NCBI RefSeq assembly: GCF_002302635.1
Contig: NZ_CP022387.1
Span: forward strand, 434,001-498,000
Length of the DNA: 64,000 nt
Direction: 5' to 3'
Source of the DNA: Capnocytophaga stomatis
GTDB lineage: Bacteria > Bacteroidota > Bacteroidia > Flavobacteriales > Flavobacteriaceae
The position numbers and the translations under genes are program-made. Each line of letters opens with the position of its first letter. Positions within the stretch are counted from its first letter, which is position 1. The notes beneath the pieces were generated by a model. That model had not been told where the DNA came from. It saw only the letters and a list, made by a program, of their open reading frames with translations, and did not search any database. Below are positions 7,633 to 15,650 of the stretch, one piece after another.

Positions 7633-8025
7633 TTACTTCACTTTTCTATATATGTGTACTACAGGGTCAATACCTCTTTTAGTTGTTGTTCGGGTTGTGA
7701 GCTTATCTCCTTCTACCGAAATTGATAAATACTGGTCATCATTGATATAAACCTGATTATCTTCTACCCTATATGAGCTATTTTTACTTTTAATCGTTTC
7801 GCAATTTCCTTCTTTTATAAAAGAATGAGACAAAAAAACGGAATCATCATCAAACTTATAAAATGTTTTCTTTTCACAATCTGATAAATTTACATTAGGT
7901 TCAAATTGATTAGAAGAACTCTCCAGCATCCAAACGCCTTTAACCTTTTTAGTATCATTGAATTTACTTTTAGCACAACTAAAAGATAAAAATACCATAA
8001 CTAATAATGTCAATATTTTTTTCAT
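7633..8025 (-). CDS. Small lipocalin-like lipoprotein
   Basis: 130 aa. A lipoprotein signal peptide ends in F-L-S-F-S-C. The mature part begins with K-V-K-G-V-W-M-L-E-S, the G-x-W motif that opens the first strand of lipocalin-like folds in Bacteroidota, and continues with alternating strands (F-Y-K-F-D-D-D-S-V; Q-V-Y-I-N-D-D; L-S-I-S-V-E-G-D-K-L). It is shorter than a full lipocalin barrel. The ligand is unknown. No clear promoter was found; it may be read with or independently of the neighbouring DUF6261 gene. Confidence 0.75.
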   Translation of the reverse strand: MKKILTLLVMVFLSFSCAKSKFNDTKKVKGVWMLESSSNQFEPNVNLSDCEKKTFYKFDDDSVFLSHSFIKEGNCETIKSKNSSYRVEDNQVYINDDQYLSISVEGDKLTTRTTTKRGIDPVVHIYRKVK

Positions 8026-9865: not shown

Positions 9866-10870
9866 TTAATAAGTACTCACTCTTTGAGCCATTCCGTCCT
9901 TATCGCCACTCACCCGATGTGCTCCCACAGGCATTAGTATGGTGTTGGAGCTGTCGCCCTGCTTCCAAATAAGCACATATGAAGAGGTGAAATTCTTAAT
10001 CCCCTCGGGAGTAACTTCTCCTGAAAGCACAACGATATTAGCATTTTTTACGTTTTTCTCCTGCCCGTACATTCGTGCATATAGCGTAAACCGATTACCG
10101 CTTCCGGTGATGTAAACACCTGCACCACTGAGGTTAGCATCTGCCGCCTTATAATCCAAAGTAGCGTGCCCATTTTTCTGAGTTGAAATTCGGTACGTGT
10201 AATCATTCCATTGGTGTCCTTTTTTGTAATTGTCACCCGGGTAAGGTTGCATCAAAATGTGAGGCGATGACAGATAGATGCCCTCAATATTCGGCGGATT
10301 GTTTCCTTCGTGAATCGCCATTCCTCCTTCTTTAAGTCGCTCAAGGTCTTCAGGTTTTATTTCGGAAAGAATGCTTTTTATTTCCACATCTATTTCCGGA
10401 GTGTTTACGGTTCCTACATTCAGCAGAGGAAGATAAAATTCTCCTTCTGTGATAGTTGCATCTCCCGAAGTAAATTCAAATGTTCCTTTGATGGTGTTAT
10501 CAGTAATACTTTCAATCATAAGTTTTCCCTGCGAAGAATTAAATAATTCTTCATTGGTTCGGTACGATGCTTTCACCATTTCGGCTTTATTATCAATGGT
10601 ATAGCTTCCTGCGGCTCTCGGGAAACCAAAATGCTTGATGTCTATCCCGTGAACAAGTTTTTCGCCCCATCTGCCATACAAAAACAAAATTGCTTTTCCG
10701 TTCGCCTCGCCAATAGCTGCGTGATGCAAGATGGCTTGCGTTTTAGTACCATTAATTTTTGCCTTGAAATAGTACCCTTCCTCCGAATTGTTGTTATCTT
10801 TCGTACAAGAAAACGCCGTCAGAATTACTGCCAGAACAATAACCAACCTAAAGTAATGTAATCTTTTCAT
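9866..10870 (-). CDS. Uncharacterised lipoprotein
   Basis: 334 aa from the ATG at 10870. A longer frame reaches 10975, but the TACATTTG promoter box lies inside that extension and the 10870 start gives a proper lipoprotein signal (L-A-V-I-L-T-A-F-S-C). The N-terminal half (G-Y-Y-F-K-A-K-I-N-G-T then G-T-F-E-F-T-S-G-D) resembles the DUF6252-like beta folds common in flavobacterial lipoproteins. The C-terminal half is a second beta-rich region (Y-T-Y-R-I-S; S-G-A-G-V-Y-I-T-G-S-G). No enzyme motif is visible; function is not recognised. It has its own promoter and terminator. Confidence 0.8.
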   Translation of the reverse strand: MKRLHYFRLVIVLAVILTAFSCTKDNNNSEEGYYFKAKINGTKTQAILHHAAIGEANGKAILFLYGRWGEKLVHGIDIKHFGFPRAAGSYTIDNKAEMVKASYRTNEELFNSSQGKLMIESITDNTIKGTFEFTSGDATITEGEFYLPLLNVGTVNTPEIDVEIKSILSEIKPEDLERLKEGGMAIHEGNNPPNIEGIYLSSPHILMQPYPGDNYKKGHQWNDYTYRISTQKNGHATLDYKAADANLSGAGVYITGSGNRFTLYARMYGQEKNVKNANIVVLSGEVTPEGIKNFTSSYVLIWKQGDSSNTILMPVGAHRVSGDKDGMAQRVSTY

Positions 10871-10894
10871 ATCCTTAATTATATTTTGTTTAGG

Positions 10895-10902
10895 CAAATG
10901 TA
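10895..10902 (-). promoter_or_regulatory. -7 box of the lipoprotein gene
   Basis: TACATTTG on the minus strand, 25 nt before the ATG at 10870. It supports that start over the longer frame. Confidence 0.55.
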
Positions 10903-10950
10903 CGCTTTTAGAAACAAAAAAGCTACTCTTTTTGGTTTTATTTAAGATAT

Positions 10951-10990
10951 AAAAAAATAAGCCCTGATGCTTCACATCAAGACTTATTGC
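10951..10990 (-). terminator. Terminator after the Omp28-like gene
   Basis: On the minus strand, arms AATAAGTCTTGATG and CATCAGGGCTTATT pair with one G-U and one mismatch, followed by TTTTTT. Confidence 0.7.
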
Positions 10991-11011: not shown

Positions 11012-11905
11012 TTACTCTGCGTACTGATAATCCTTAGTTTCATTGGCTTTGGCTTCCTGAACGTTAACTACAGCTTTATTTTTGTTGGTAACAAAAACTA
11101 CAACTTTTACGTTAGCTAACTTCTCTCTACTCATTAAATTATATGAAAAATTTAAGTCGGCTTTCGTAACTTCCTTTCCTACAGTTAATGTTTCCAACGC
11201 ATTACCCGATCCATCTCCATAAAAAGCTCTCAACACATCGTCGTGTCTGAAATTATAGTCTCCTGAGCCAGCTTGATAGTATGTAATATTATCTTCTGTT
11301 ATAAAGACGTTATATTTCAAATCTTTTAGTCCGTTTTCTGCTGTTTTAAAACTAACCGAAACTGTACCACCTGTTTCTGTTAACTTAGAGGATATTTTTA
11401 TTCCTATAGGCGAAGTTAGATTTTTTTCTAAGCGTTCAAAAATATGCTGAGCTGCATTACTTTTAAACAACTCTTGATCTCTATTTAACCTAAGCCACGG
11501 ATAACTCCAATGAAAAGGAAATTCAGAATCATTACTTGGTAGAGTGGTAAGATGCCTTAATATTGCATCACTTCCTCTAATTTCCATAGGATCATACCTT
11601 CCACCTGAATCGTGGATTGCAACAACTGCAAATCTTTCCTTAAGCGGTGTGGTTGAGTTTTTTGCTTCGCGGATAGCCTCAATCATATATAAACAAGGAG
11701 GACACCAACTACCCGTAACATCTTCTACTAAAGCCTTATAAACAAAAGGACGTTTATCCTCTGCTGAAGGGTTGTTTTCCTCATTTTCTTTTGTTTCATT
11801 TCTTTCCTCTACCTCATTTGAAGAAGAGTTGTCATCTTTGCTACAAGAAACCACTAAAAAAGAAGCCAATACTACGGCTAAACCTGATAAAAAACTTTTT
11901 CTCAT
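11012..11905 (-). CDS. Omp28-like lipoprotein with a CxxC thioredoxin-type motif
   Basis: 297 aa. Lipoprotein signal ends V-V-S-C (Cys21), followed by an acidic Asn/Glu-rich tether (~23-50). Residues ~55-190 form a thioredoxin-like domain with V-T-G-S-W-C-P-P-C (Cys68 and Cys71), as in Omp28-related outer-membrane proteins of Porphyromonas and relatives. Residues ~200-297 are beta-rich. The CPPC pair suggests thiol chemistry outside the inner membrane, but the substrate is unknown. The gene is divergent from a soluble thioredoxin and a DUF6029 barrel; the two -7 boxes lie ~43 bp apart, so the three genes probably form one functional module. Confidence 0.85.
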   Translation of the reverse strand: MRKSFLSGLAVVLASFLVVSCSKDDNSSSNEVEERNETKENEENNPSAEDKRPFVYKALVEDVTGSWCPPCLYMIEAIREAKNSTTPLKERFAVVAIHDSGGRYDPMEIRGSDAILRHLTTLPSNDSEFPFHWSYPWLRLNRDQELFKSNAAQHIFERLEKNLTSPIGIKISSKLTETGGTVSVSFKTAENGLKDLKYNVFITEDNITYYQAGSGDYNFRHDDVLRAFYGDGSGNALETLTVGKEVTKADLNFSYNLMSREKLANVKVVVFVTNKNKAVVNVQEAKANETKDYQYAE

Positions 11906-11931
11906 TGTTATTATAATATTTAAATGCGGTG

Positions 11932-11939
11932 CAAAGATA
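11932..11939 (-). promoter_or_regulatory. -7 box of the Omp28-like gene
   Basis: TATCTTTG on the minus strand, 26 nt upstream of the ATG; back-to-back with the promoter at 11982-11989. Confidence 0.6.
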
Positions 11940-11981
11940 AAAATTAAAAGTAAACTTTAATGTATTTTCTCCATTTTTATA

Positions 11982-11989
11982 TACCTTTG
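11982..11989 (+). promoter_or_regulatory. -7 box of the thioredoxin/DUF6029 operon
   Basis: TACCTTTG, 31 nt upstream of the ATG at 12021; exact consensus. Confidence 0.6.
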
Positions 11990-12020
11990 CGGGCTTTTTA
12001 TTAGAAAAAATATAATAACA

Positions 12021-12503
12021 ATGAAAATCTTAACTACACTCACAGTGGTACTTTTTAGTACTCTTGGCTTCGCACAAGCGTCGCTACCCAATGTTCAACT
12101 GAAAGATTTACAAGGAAAAACAGTAAACCTTTCCGAGTACAATTCCAAACAAAATCCCGTTATCGTGAGCTTTTGGGCTACGTGGTGTGCTCCGTGCATC
12201 AAAGAACTGAAAACATTCAGCAAACACTACAAACAGTGGCAAAATGAGTTCGGTGCGGAGCTAATCGCCGTTTCCACAGACGATGCCAAAACCAAAAATC
12301 GCGTAAAATCACAAGTGAAAGGAGCCGGATGGCAATACACCATACTTATGGACGACAACCACGAGCTGAAAAGAGCCTTAAACGTTGCCAACATTCCATA
12401 CACACTTATTTTGCACAAAGGCAAAGTGGTATTCGTACATTCGGGTTACACGCCGGGTATCGAAACTGAAATTTATAAGAAATTACAATCTTTATCAAAA
12501 TAA
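12021..12503 (+). CDS. Exported TlpA-like thioredoxin
   Basis: 160 aa. A cleavable signal peptide (about 1-18, ending G-F-A-Q-A) directs it to the periplasm. The rest is a single TlpA/ResA-type thioredoxin fold with F-W-A-T-W-C-A-P-C (Cys56, Cys59) and the cis-Pro loop A-N-I-P-Y-T-L-I-L. Such proteins reduce disulfides of specific envelope clients. Its stop is 2 nt from the start of the DUF6029 gene, so the two are co-translated, and the client may be that protein or the divergent Omp28-like lipoprotein (inference). No cytochrome c maturation genes are nearby. Confidence 0.92.
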   Translation: MKILTTLTVVLFSTLGFAQASLPNVQLKDLQGKTVNLSEYNSKQNPVIVSFWATWCAPCIKELKTFSKHYKQWQNEFGAELIAVSTDDAKTKNRVKSQVKGAGWQYTILMDDNHELKRALNVANIPYTLILHKGKVVFVHSGYTPGIETEIYKKLQSLSK

Positions 12504-12505
12504 TT

Positions 12506-14197
12506 ATGCGTAAATATTTACTAACCTGCGGATTTTGTTTGGTTTCGGCAATGGGTTTTTCGCAACTCCGCGTCGGTTTTGAATCAAATTCACAATACTA
12601 CATCGATGACAACCAAATTAAATTAGATGAATTTGAAGCCGAAAATCGATTCCGTTCCAATAACTATCTGAAAATCGATTATCGTATCAAAAATTTTGAA
12701 TTTGGGCTACAAGGCGAGTCGTACGCTCCAAAAGCATTACTTCATTATAATCCGCAACTCAAAGATTATCACATCGGTACGGCTTTCGCTCGTTATAACA
12801 ATCTTCAAAAAGGAATTGACATCACCGCAGGACATTTCTACGAGCAATTCGGGAGCGGACTGGCACTTCGTTTTTGGGAAGACCGAGCTCTTGGCATCAA
12901 TAACGCTCTTTTCGGCGGACGTATCAAATGGAATTTACAAGATATTTTTCAGTTGAAAGTTCTTGGTGGAAGGCAACGCATTGGTATGGGATTCGACTTT
13001 TCCAAAGGATTTATTTTAGGAAGTGATGCCGAATTAGATATAAGCCAATTACTTAAAAAAGAAGAATATACGCTAAAAATCGGAGGCTTGTTCACAATAC
13101 GAAACGAAGATATTTCCAAAAAACAACCTCAGTCAGAAAAAAATACTTCCATTTTTGGTTTCCGAACCGATTACAGCGGAGAAAAATTCAATTTCAGCGG
13201 AGAATATTTGTATAAAACCAAAGACATTCACTACGAATTGCAGGAATTCTACCCCAAAATCAATCGTGCCGGTAATGCGCTGTTACTCAATATGGGATAC
13301 AACAACGGAGACAATGTTGCTTTCAACCTAAACCTCCGCCGATTGGAAAATTTCAGATTTTTCTCACAACGAAATTTAGTGGATAATGTTTACAATTACG
13401 GAATGATAAATTACATTCCCGCACTAACCAAACAGTACGAACACAGCCTGCAAAACATATATGTATATCAGGCTCAACCGCAAATGGCTTACTATAGTTA
13501 TTTTAAAAAGCAGGGAGAAATCGGTGGGCAGTTTGACCTCTTTTACGAAGCTCCGTCCGGTTCATTTTTAGGTGGTTCAACGGGTGCAAGTTTTGCTATA
13601 AATGGTTCGTATTGGGCGGGACTTAAAAACAACGTGAAAACCACCATAGTAACCGACAAATACGGCATCAAAAATGAAGAAGTGGAACTAAGCAGCCCTA
13701 TTATCGGGTTTGGGGAGAAATACTATCACGATATCGCTATCGAATACCGAAAACCTTTCTCTGACCATTTCACCACTATTTTTTCGTACTTGAATCAATA
13801 TTACAACAGTTCTTTGATTATTCAAAAACCGTATCAGGTAAAAGCTCATACCATTTCTGCCGAAGGAACTTATTTTCTCTCTGATACACAATCCATTCGA
13901 TTGGAAATGCAACATCAGTGGGCTAATGAAGATTTGAAAAATTGGATAGGCAATACTTTGGAATACATTCCCAATGCACGATGGTCGTTTTTTGTAAGTG
14001 ATTTGTACAATTACGGAAACGATGACAAAGCCAAAAGAATTCATTATTACAACGTTGGGACATCCTTCTCCTACAAAGCTACGCGAGTGGCTCTAAGCTA
14101 CGGAAGACAACGTGGAGGTGTGCTGTGCGTGGGTGGCGTTTGCCGTATCGTGCCGGAATCAGCTGGGCTTACGCTTAATATCACTACCAATTTTTAA
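12506..14197 (+). CDS. DUF6029-family outer-membrane beta-barrel protein
   Basis: 563 aa with a signal peptide (1-19, ending G-F-S-Q). From ~25 to the end it shows alternating aromatic beta-strands typical of a large outer-membrane barrel, ending in a terminal Phe (N-I-T-T-N-F). I recognise the Bacteroidota DUF6029 family; its function is unknown. A notable feature is the C-x4-C pair C-V-G-G-V-C (Cys541, Cys546) followed by R-I-V-P, in the last hairpin of the barrel. I recall similar C-x-G-G-V-C-R-x-V-P tails in other family members. Co-expression with an exported thioredoxin suggests this pair is redox-controlled or must be correctly oxidised. Confidence 0.85.
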   Translation: MRKYLLTCGFCLVSAMGFSQLRVGFESNSQYYIDDNQIKLDEFEAENRFRSNNYLKIDYRIKNFEFGLQGESYAPKALLHYNPQLKDYHIGTAFARYNNLQKGIDITAGHFYEQFGSGLALRFWEDRALGINNALFGGRIKWNLQDIFQLKVLGGRQRIGMGFDFSKGFILGSDAELDISQLLKKEEYTLKIGGLFTIRNEDISKKQPQSEKNTSIFGFRTDYSGEKFNFSGEYLYKTKDIHYELQEFYPKINRAGNALLLNMGYNNGDNVAFNLNLRRLENFRFFSQRNLVDNVYNYGMINYIPALTKQYEHSLQNIYVYQAQPQMAYYSYFKKQGEIGGQFDLFYEAPSGSFLGGSTGASFAINGSYWAGLKNNVKTTIVTDKYGIKNEEVELSSPIIGFGEKYYHDIAIEYRKPFSDHFTTIFSYLNQYYNSSLIIQKPYQVKAHTISAEGTYFLSDTQSIRLEMQHQWANEDLKNWIGNTLEYIPNARWSFFVSDLYNYGNDDKAKRIHYYNVGTSFSYKATRVALSYGRQRGGVLCVGGVCRIVPESAGLTLNITTNF

Positions 14198-14258: not shown

Positions 14259-15650
14259 TTAGTATCCTAATATTTTCAGCATTTCTTCAACTTTTTGCTG
14301 TTCCATAAATAAATGCGTACTTATTTTTCCTTCTTCGTCCTTGTCAATCAAAATGATTTTTGGCTGCGGAATCAAACAGTGTTGCAACCCACCTACTCCA
14401 CCAATAGTATCCTGATAAGCTCCTGTATTGAAAAATCCGATATATAAAGGCTTGTTTTTGTTATATTTAGGCAAGTAAATCGCGTTCATATTCTGTTCAC
14501 TGTTGTAATAATCGTCTCCATCACAAGTAAGCCCGCCAAGCAATACACGCTCGTATTCATCATACCAACGATTGATTGGAAGCAACACAAACCTTTTGTT
14601 AATAGCCCAAGAATCAGGCAATGTAGTAATGAAAGATGAATTAATCATATTCCATTTTTCGCGGTCATTTTGTTGCTTTTGGTACATAATCTCATAAATC
14701 GCACCACCGGCTTCTCCAACCGTAAAGCTTCCAAATTCTGTAAAAATGTTAGGCACAGGAACTTTTTCTTGCTCACAAGCGATTTTTATCTGACGGATAA
14801 TTTCATCAACCATATAAGCATAATCGTATTCAAACGCCAAAGAACTCTTAATCGGGAATCCTCCTCCAATGTTTAAGCTATCAAGCTCAGGAGCTACTTT
14901 TTTGAGCTGAATATATACTTTCAAACATTTTAAAAGCTCATTCCAATAGTAAGCATTATCTTTAATCCCTGTGTTGATAAAAAAGTGTAACATTTTAAGA
15001 GTCACCTTTTTATTATCCTTGATTTCCCTGTTGTAAAACGGAACGATGTTTTTATAACCAATTCCCAAACGACTGGTATAAAACTCTGAACGAGGGTCTT
15101 CTTCCGAAGCAATTCGGATACCTATATTGTACTGTCCTTCAATCTTTTTATCAAAAAGGTTGATTTCCTCATAGTTATCAATAATTGGCATACATTTATC
15201 AAATCCGCGATTTACCAAATCCGCGATGCCATCAATGTAACCATTACGCTTGAATCCGTTGCAAATGATGTAGTTATCTTTTGTAATTCGTCCTTCTTTT
15301 ATTAAATTATTGATAATATCAATATCAAAGGCAGATGAGGTTTCCAAATGAATATCATTTTTCAAAGCCTCCACCATAACGTGCTTAAAATGAGAACTTT
15401 TAGTACAATAGCAATAATTGTAAGTTCCTTTGTATCTGTGTTTTTTGATGGCTTTTTCAAACCAGCGTTTTGCTCGTTGAATATTATCAGAAATTCTTGG
15501 GAGATACATAAATTTGAGCGGTGCCCCGTACTGGCGTACAAGTTCCATCAAATCAATGTCGTGAAAACGAAGCTCATCTCCTTCTAATCTGAACTCTTCT
15601 TGCGGAAAATAATAAGTTTGGTCTATTAAGTCTATGTATTTGTTTTTCAT
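14259..15650 (-). CDS. speA: Arginine decarboxylase-like PLP enzyme, short flavobacterial type
   Basis: 463 aa, alanine-racemase-fold (fold type III) decarboxylase. The PLP lysine is Lys84 in Y-C-Y-C-T-K-S-S-H-F. The phosphate-binding glycine loop is L-N-I-G-G-G-F-P, and the catalytic Cys/Asp segment is L-T-C-D-G-D-D-Y-Y near 396. It is shorter than E. coli SpeA (658 aa) and matches the form annotated as arginine decarboxylase in flavobacteria; carboxynorspermidine decarboxylase is a less likely reading. It would supply agmatine for polyamines and logically pairs with the deoxyhypusine-synthase-like gene at 6527. No agmatinase gene is in the window. The only good promoter box is ~300 nt upstream, leaving a long leader. 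Confidence 0.88.
   Translation of the reverse strand: MKNKYIDLIDQTYYFPQEEFRLEGDELRFHDIDLMELVRQYGAPLKFMYLPRISDNIQRAKRWFEKAIKKHRYKGTYNYCYCTKSSHFKHVMVEALKNDIHLETSSAFDIDIINNLIKEGRITKDNYIICNGFKRNGYIDGIADLVNRGFDKCMPIIDNYEEINLFDKKIEGQYNIGIRIASEEDPRSEFYTSRLGIGYKNIVPFYNREIKDNKKVTLKMLHFFINTGIKDNAYYWNELLKCLKVYIQLKKVAPELDSLNIGGGFPIKSSLAFEYDYAYMVDEIIRQIKIACEQEKVPVPNIFTEFGSFTVGEAGGAIYEIMYQKQQNDREKWNMINSSFITTLPDSWAINKRFVLLPINRWYDEYERVLLGGLTCDGDDYYNSEQNMNAIYLPKYNKNKPLYIGFFNTGAYQDTIGGVGGLQHCLIPQPKIILIDKDEEGKISTHLFMEQQKVEEMLKILGY

Follow-up and report, generated by a model that had tools for sequence, protein, structure and literature searches.

Organization of the locus

We analyzed a 64,000-nucleotide stretch of the Capnocytophaga stomatis genome (2.83 Mb, one contig), namely positions 434,001 to 498,000 of contig NZ_CP022387.1 in assembly GCF_002302635.1 (hereafter, the window), with a focus on three adjacent genes that encode an Omp28-family lipoprotein (O), an exported TlpA/ResA-like thioredoxin (T) and a DUF6029 outer-membrane barrel (D) (Table 1). 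T and D lie on the same strand, 2 nt apart, and are separated from the divergently transcribed O by an intergenic gap of 115 nt. An earlier note on this DNA, made from the nucleotide sequence, described a CxxC lipoprotein facing one way and a thioredoxin and a 563-residue barrel facing the other, with cysteine pairs in all three products. The open reading frames (ORFs) and the Pfam families agree with this layout, and the pairs are C56/C59 in T, C68/C71 in O (in addition to the lipobox cysteine C21) and C541/C546 in D. Across genomes, the three genes are linked and co-inherited, and each of the three encoded proteins has a near-invariant cysteine pair.

Table 1. Coordinates of the three genes and associated features in the window
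Feature	Position	Strand	Basis
O: Omp28-family lipoprotein, 297 aa	11012..11905	-	PF11551 match
T: exported TlpA/ResA-like thioredoxin, 160 aa	12021..12503	+	PF00578 match, WC56APC59
D: DUF6029 outer-membrane barrel, 563 aa	12506..14197	+	PF19494 match
Promoter-like box TATCTTTG before omp28	11932..11939	-	placement; box count at chance
Promoter-like box TACCTTTG before the thioredoxin-barrel pair	11982..11989	+	placement; box count at chance
Codons of C541-V-G-G-V-C546 (CxGGxC, tip of the last hairpin of D)	14126..14143	+	alignment and predicted strands

D matches the DUF6029 profile with 597.3 bits (cut-off 27), covering profile positions 25-538 of 538; its closest named relative comes from Capnocytophaga catalasegens (66% identity). 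T scores 83.5 bits against the AhpC-TSA/TlpA-like family (cut-off 26; E 1.5e-23) and falls below the cut-offs of ResA (NF002854; 78.7 vs 170 bits) and DsbE (36.7 vs 123.15 bits). T shares its domain, the WCxPC motif and the conserved proline with TlpA/ResA/CcmG-type thioredoxins but differs from them in missing the ResA and DsbE cut-offs and in having an outer-membrane barrel gene as its neighbor. The signal peptide of T, judged by eye, lacks a lipobox, and T is predicted to be a soluble periplasmic thioredoxin. Its closest relative in the PDB is 2m72 (E 9.3e-38), which we take to be the product of PG_2175 of Porphyromonas gingivalis. O matches the Omp28 family with 81 bits (cut-off 34.9) and remains below the cut-off of the Omp28 lipoprotein subfamily NF033782 (54.4 vs 150 bits). 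Its lipobox (VVSC-SKDDN) is followed by a predicted thioredoxin domain, with C68-P-P-C71 and the conserved P136 before a strand, and then by an Ig-like Omp28 domain.

Conserved gene linkage and co-inheritance

Of 149 genomes sampled evenly across the class Bacteroidia, 110 encode DUF6029, nearly always as a single gene; in the own family, Flavobacteriaceae, 45 of 199 sampled genomes encode it. A search of viral contigs for DUF6029 relatives returned none. We fetched 151 stretches of 4.6 to 12.3 kb around D (109 for the class, 42 for the family), leaving out two weak family matches (G240 and G338), and labelled the neighbors with profiles grown from the window proteins. Exclusion of two stretches without a separate D ORF (L124 and L211) left 108 class and 41 family loci; 80 named loci formed a separate collection. 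Only T shorter than 280 aa were counted because the T label is loose on ORFs longer than 400 aa, the profile having included other exported proteins; one 252-aa ORF with this label (L153) lacks CxxC and is probably mislabelled.

T is encoded directly upstream of D in 69 of the 108 class loci, 39 of the 41 family loci and 75 of the 80 named loci. O, of any length, is directly downstream of D in 85 of the class loci and is adjacent to it in 36 of the family loci and 65 of the named ones; in the three named loci that contain neither gene (L241, L259 and L280), the stretch begins within 25 bases of the barrel match. Under a rough chance model that assumes 3000 genes, 2.6 Omp28 proteins and 15 thioredoxins per genome, about 0.2 O neighbors are expected among the 108 loci. 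Linkage of DUF6029 to both redox genes had been set in advance, in the earlier note, as the check on its proposal; it proved to be far above chance, and the opposite outcome, barrel genes usually unlinked to both, was not found. The divergent layout of the window is the usual one in the own family (35 of 41 loci) but not the commonest in the class, where all three genes are co-directional in 64 of the 108 loci. In a phylum-wide draw, DUF6029 matches were detected in 24 of 80 genomes, several of them weak. All 18 out-of-class loci were fetched: T is directly upstream in 16, O is directly downstream in 9, and the barrel carries C-x4-C near its C terminus in 17 (often as CxxGxC), the remaining one being a broken gene. 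Given that the T-D pair with its cysteines is kept in these loci, it is either older than the class or has passed between classes.

Among the 149 class genomes, 109 encode both D and a protein with the Omp28 domain (PF11551), one D only, six Omp28 only and 33 neither (Fisher p 8e-26, a generous value, given that PF11551 also takes in Omp28 proteins secreted by the type IX route and that related genomes lack independence). In the lone D-only genome (G015), an O recognized by the window-grown profile adjoins D (L102). Within the genus (n=20), the same six genomes carry D, O and a T ortholog with at least 68% identity; in the remaining 14, D is absent, no O is detected at E 1e-5, and the thioredoxins reach at most 37% identity. 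In one of the six (G360), O is on a different contig from the T-D pair, with no O in the stretch around that pair, so that what is shared there is presence and not just position. Another genome of the genus (G350) contains two tandem omp28 copies beside the thioredoxin-barrel pair (L317).

A coincidental gene order, with the trio merely inherited together, is very improbable. Gene order can persist by descent, and a tree of 62 barrels mostly tracks taxonomy (rows of other lineages, L231 and L275, fall inside Flavobacteriaceae). However, order and strand have been reshuffled, with O divergent in one family and co-directional in most class loci, yet adjacency is kept; furthermore, the trio is present or absent together in the genus, and the T-D pair is retained outside the class.

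Near-invariant cysteines and the structure of the barrel

In an alignment of 147 barrels of at least 450 aa (8 of the 155 D ORFs, all shorter, were omitted), C541 is a cysteine in 146 sequences and C546 in 145, and G543, G544 and R547 are almost as constant. The C-x4-C signature near the C terminus is present in all 80 named barrels and in 147 of the 155 ORFs of the first set; the eight exceptions belong to six loci, and each is frameshifted, split, truncated or N-masked. The other two cysteines of D, C8 and C11, lie within the signal peptide and are not conserved, and 108 of the 147 barrels contain no further cysteine between residue 26 and the last 60 residues. The partner proteins show the same pattern: C56, C59 and P126 of T are each kept in 108 of 109 cassette thioredoxins, and WCxPC is present in 72 of the 75 T of the named loci, whereas each CxxC cysteine of O is found in 121 and the lipobox cysteine in 119 of 122 sequences, with CxxC in 63 of the 65 O from the named loci. 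Loss of conservation of the cysteines, which would have spoken against the original proposal, was thus seen in none of the three families. A lower-scoring DUF6029 branch (most of L143-L170) has the motif C[TNS]GG[VI]CRxEPAFxG; there, Omp28 is usually adjacent, mostly no thioredoxin is encoded directly upstream, and the gene in that position varies.

The AlphaFold model of D is a confident wide barrel of about 24 strands, a count taken from predicted secondary structure only. Strands 538-542 and 545-549 of the model flank the GG turn, which places C541 and C546 at the tip of the last hairpin. No other segment of the barrel is as strongly conserved as this one (0.77). By strand order, this hairpin is predicted to face the extracellular side. 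To our knowledge, outer-membrane barrels with a conserved, possibly redox-active cysteine pair are rare. Cysteines matter in LptD, an outer-membrane barrel with Dsb-made disulfides, and in the MtrB/PioB barrels, which carry an N-terminal CxxC; D is set apart from both by the location of its pair, at the tip of the last hairpin on the predicted extracellular side, and by the two thioredoxin-fold genes that accompany it.

Structural comparison of the D model with VIA-align placed the FimD/PapC ushers in the top rows, with porins about 1 Z lower (OccK3, Z 16.8), whereas Foldseek returned ushers mixed with TonB receptors and LptD, at TM-scores under 0.6. Matches of the barrel to RecA in the PDB were treated as an artefact, zero stretches having passed. 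In one alternative, D would be a usher-like channel of wide bore through which O or other surface proteins leave the cell, with T keeping the cargo thiols reduced; we regard such an export pore as improbable. The usher and porin rows differ little in Z, and the barrel size that D shares with FimD and PapC shows no function; unlike these pores, D matches DUF6029 alone in a Pfam scan at E 0.01, with no usher family. Moreover, D has no match in 154 of the 199 own-family genomes and hence is no general exporter, and the invariant cysteines of the barrel itself would be left unexplained.

In the open-licence literature that we searched, DUF6029 is named in one paper only, the accessible text of which suggests, from HHpred matches, a possible role in polysaccharide secretion (PMC9603273). 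D could also be a redox-gated transporter for the uptake or secretion of a small substrate (polysaccharide, heme or metal), with the thioredoxins switching the hairpin disulfide. We rate this, too, as improbable, on weak counter-evidence: none of 10 annotated neighbor proteins from 6 loci is the product of a polysaccharide, heme or TonB gene. The most constant neighbors are thioredoxin-like.

The Omp28 lipoprotein and its surface-exposed relatives

The architecture of O, an N-terminal thioredoxin fold with CxxC followed by an Ig-like domain, is that of HBP35 of P. gingivalis, as judged from VIA-align of the AlphaFold model to PDB 5y1a. HBP35 differs from O in its C-terminal sorting domain and its binding of hemin; O is instead a lipoprotein that has an export signal, and a Pfam scan of it at E 0.01 gives PF11551 alone, without a C-terminal type IX sorting domain. 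HBP35 is located on the cell surface and reduces insulin via its two cysteines, and the available text of the report names no barrel or periplasmic partner for it (PMC2907840). Hence, the statement in the earlier note that Omp28 has no assigned role is correct only in part: thioredoxin activity has been shown, according to the same text, for this structural relative. For the HBP35-like surface thioredoxins of Muribaculaceae, the accessible part of a 2026 preprint proposes roles in the protection of surface proteins and in assisting iron transport, and it names no barrel partner (PMC13404670).

In Capnocytophaga, the surface-lipoprotein export signal (LES) is described, in the portion of the source available, as K-(D/E)2 at +3 to +5 after the lipobox cysteine (PMC5080379). 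O of the window matches the minimal LES (C-S-K-D-D-N) and is probably displayed on the cell surface.

The O profile also matches the Omp28 structure 2r2c, that of PG2173 of P. gingivalis (E 1.2e-20). PG2173 is called an Omp28 lipoprotein in PMC9722745, with no role assigned to it in the accessible text; the available part of PMC4335976 lists PG_2174 among vesicle proteins, as uncharacterised. By gene order, PG_2174 would be the barrel, and the order T-D-O would fit if 2m72 is indeed PG_2175. Some Omp28 relatives have other jobs, given that a Paraprevotella Omp28-related protein dependent on type IX secretion binds trypsin (PMC9477747, accessible text). Omp28 is not mentioned in the available portion of a selenoprotein review (PMC13188914), and the tandem genes involved in colony spreading of Flavobacterium are pep25 and lbp26 (PMC9950754, accessible text).

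Links to type IX secretion

Long (at least 400 aa) neighbors labelled as Omp28 or thioredoxin number 122 and occur in 88 of the 149 loci; when every second one was scanned (61 of 122), the type IX sorting tail was found in 49 and the Omp28 domain in 36. Among the matches listed, 29 genomes have D on one contig with sprA, which encodes the type IX translocon; in 19 of these, the two genes are within 15 kb of each other, at distances of 7.7-14.5 kb (class genomes G074, G046, G009, G051 and G123 are examples). Type IX secretion was considered as an explanation for the presence or absence of D and rejected: SprA is encoded in 143 of the 149 class genomes and therefore does not separate carriers of D from non-carriers.

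A possible thiol-disulfide system at the outer membrane

The dedicated thiol system envisaged in the earlier note is well supported, given linkage far above chance and near-invariant cysteines in each of the three families. We tentatively propose, at a confidence a little below even, that the three genes encode a thiol-disulfide system of this kind, which would work at the outer membrane or across it. We infer with similar caution, giving it nearly but not quite an even chance, that disulfides are exchanged among T, D and O and that the net effect is to set the redox state of thioredoxins on the surface, or that of their clients. Electrons would pass from a DsbD-type protein of the inner membrane to T; the window genome encodes one DsbD-type membrane protein that could serve as the source. 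The cysteine hairpin of D would be the relay or docking point at the outer face, exchanging disulfides with O and, in other species, with Omp28-like surface proteins that are secreted by the type IX route. The system as a whole would hold the thioredoxins of the surface, or their clients, in the appropriate redox state, with reduction more likely than oxidation. The membrane could be crossed by T entering the mouth of the barrel, by a small thiol passing through it, or by loading of D before insertion. We place the chemistry mainly at the outer face because the cysteine hairpin is the most conserved part of the barrel and is extracellular by strand order, and because O fits the surface-export signal.

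DsbD is a helical thiol relay of the inner membrane that uses cytoplasmic thioredoxin. The logic of the proposed trio is analogous, in that reducing power is carried across a membrane to thioredoxin-fold proteins, but D is an outer-membrane barrel, whereas DsbD is helical and fed from the cytoplasm. The broader proposition, that the trio is the outer-membrane counterpart of DsbD, a phylum-wide relay in which the hairpin disulfide of the barrel passes periplasmic reducing power to surface thioredoxins, is doubtful on present evidence. We know of no outer-membrane counterpart of DsbD and of no described electron source outside the outer membrane for surface thioredoxins. If real, the relay would answer the question of how surface-anchored thioredoxins, such as HBP35 and Omp28, become re-reduced; the cassette is a concrete, gene-level candidate for an electron source of the surface thioredoxin-fold proteins of Bacteroidota and gives DUF6029 a testable function. 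Among the matches listed in the open-licence literature, no title or abstract describes the trio, which is not proof of absence.

Several observations weigh against the proposed thiol-disulfide system. On the periplasmic side, the turns of D are short, mostly show poor conservation and offer no obvious docking site for T; the extracellular loops, with the exception of loop 112-134 and the last hairpin, are hardly more conserved. T is not directly upstream of D in 39 of the 108 class loci, although nearly all barrels keep the motif, and 15 of these 108 loci have neither T directly upstream nor any Omp28-labelled ORF in the fetched stretch. The lipobox context of the class set, CDx[IV][ED]xP, differs from the LES, as the latter is given in the accessible text of PMC5080379. 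In the available text on HBP35, hbp35 is reported to complement an E. coli dsbA mutant, which is an oxidising role (PMC2907840). Finally, the window genome contains a single match to the type IX tail (PF18962), and its sprA is 1.04 Mb away from D, so that links to type IX secretion are not needed for the core trio.

The main rival explanation, which we consider somewhat unlikely and which corresponds to the possible activation or assembly of the barrel suggested in the earlier note, is that T is a biogenesis factor, a dedicated oxidoreductase that, much as Dsb proteins do for LptD, sets the thiol state of D, and perhaps of O, in the periplasm before insertion by Bam; the disulfide of the finished barrel would be structural and O simply a partner subunit. 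The tight coupling of T and D fits this explanation: the two genes are almost contiguous in the window, several pairs elsewhere overlap by -4 if the longest ORFs are taken, and T-D is the best-kept part of the cassette outside the class. So do the apparent periplasmic location of T, the otherwise cysteine-poor barrels and the position of the cysteines next to the C-terminal strand, which is thought to be read first by Bam. However, a role in biogenesis alone does not account for the thioredoxin fold and the surface signal of the third partner, a lipoprotein, or for the presence of O in all six D-bearing genomes of the genus, and the class loci that lack T directly upstream while retaining the motif count against it as well.

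Neighboring genes and the intergenic region

In one class locus, omp28 is followed by genes for a small outer-membrane barrel and a UbiX-type flavin prenyltransferase (L062:5367-6573), and ORFs of length similar to this pair follow omp28 in many other class loci. In the window, two more likely lipoproteins are encoded beside the cassette, at 9866-10975 and 7633-8025, one with a DUF6252 match below the cut-off and one lipocalin-like, and positions 14259-15650 encode an arginine-decarboxylase-like protein of 463 aa that scores well below the equivalog cut-offs.

The earlier note also held that two back-to-back TAnnTTTG boxes drive the divergent transcription units. Both boxes are present, one in each direction: TACCTTTG and TATCTTTG are separated by 42 nt and lie 31 and 26 nt, respectively, before the start codons. 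Such boxes are no more frequent than expected by chance (L001, 4641 bases: 7 found vs 6.6 expected), and the case for these putative promoters accordingly comes solely from their placement. The leader ATAATAACA precedes both start codons and thus forms an inverted repeat at the ends of the intergenic region (11906-12020).

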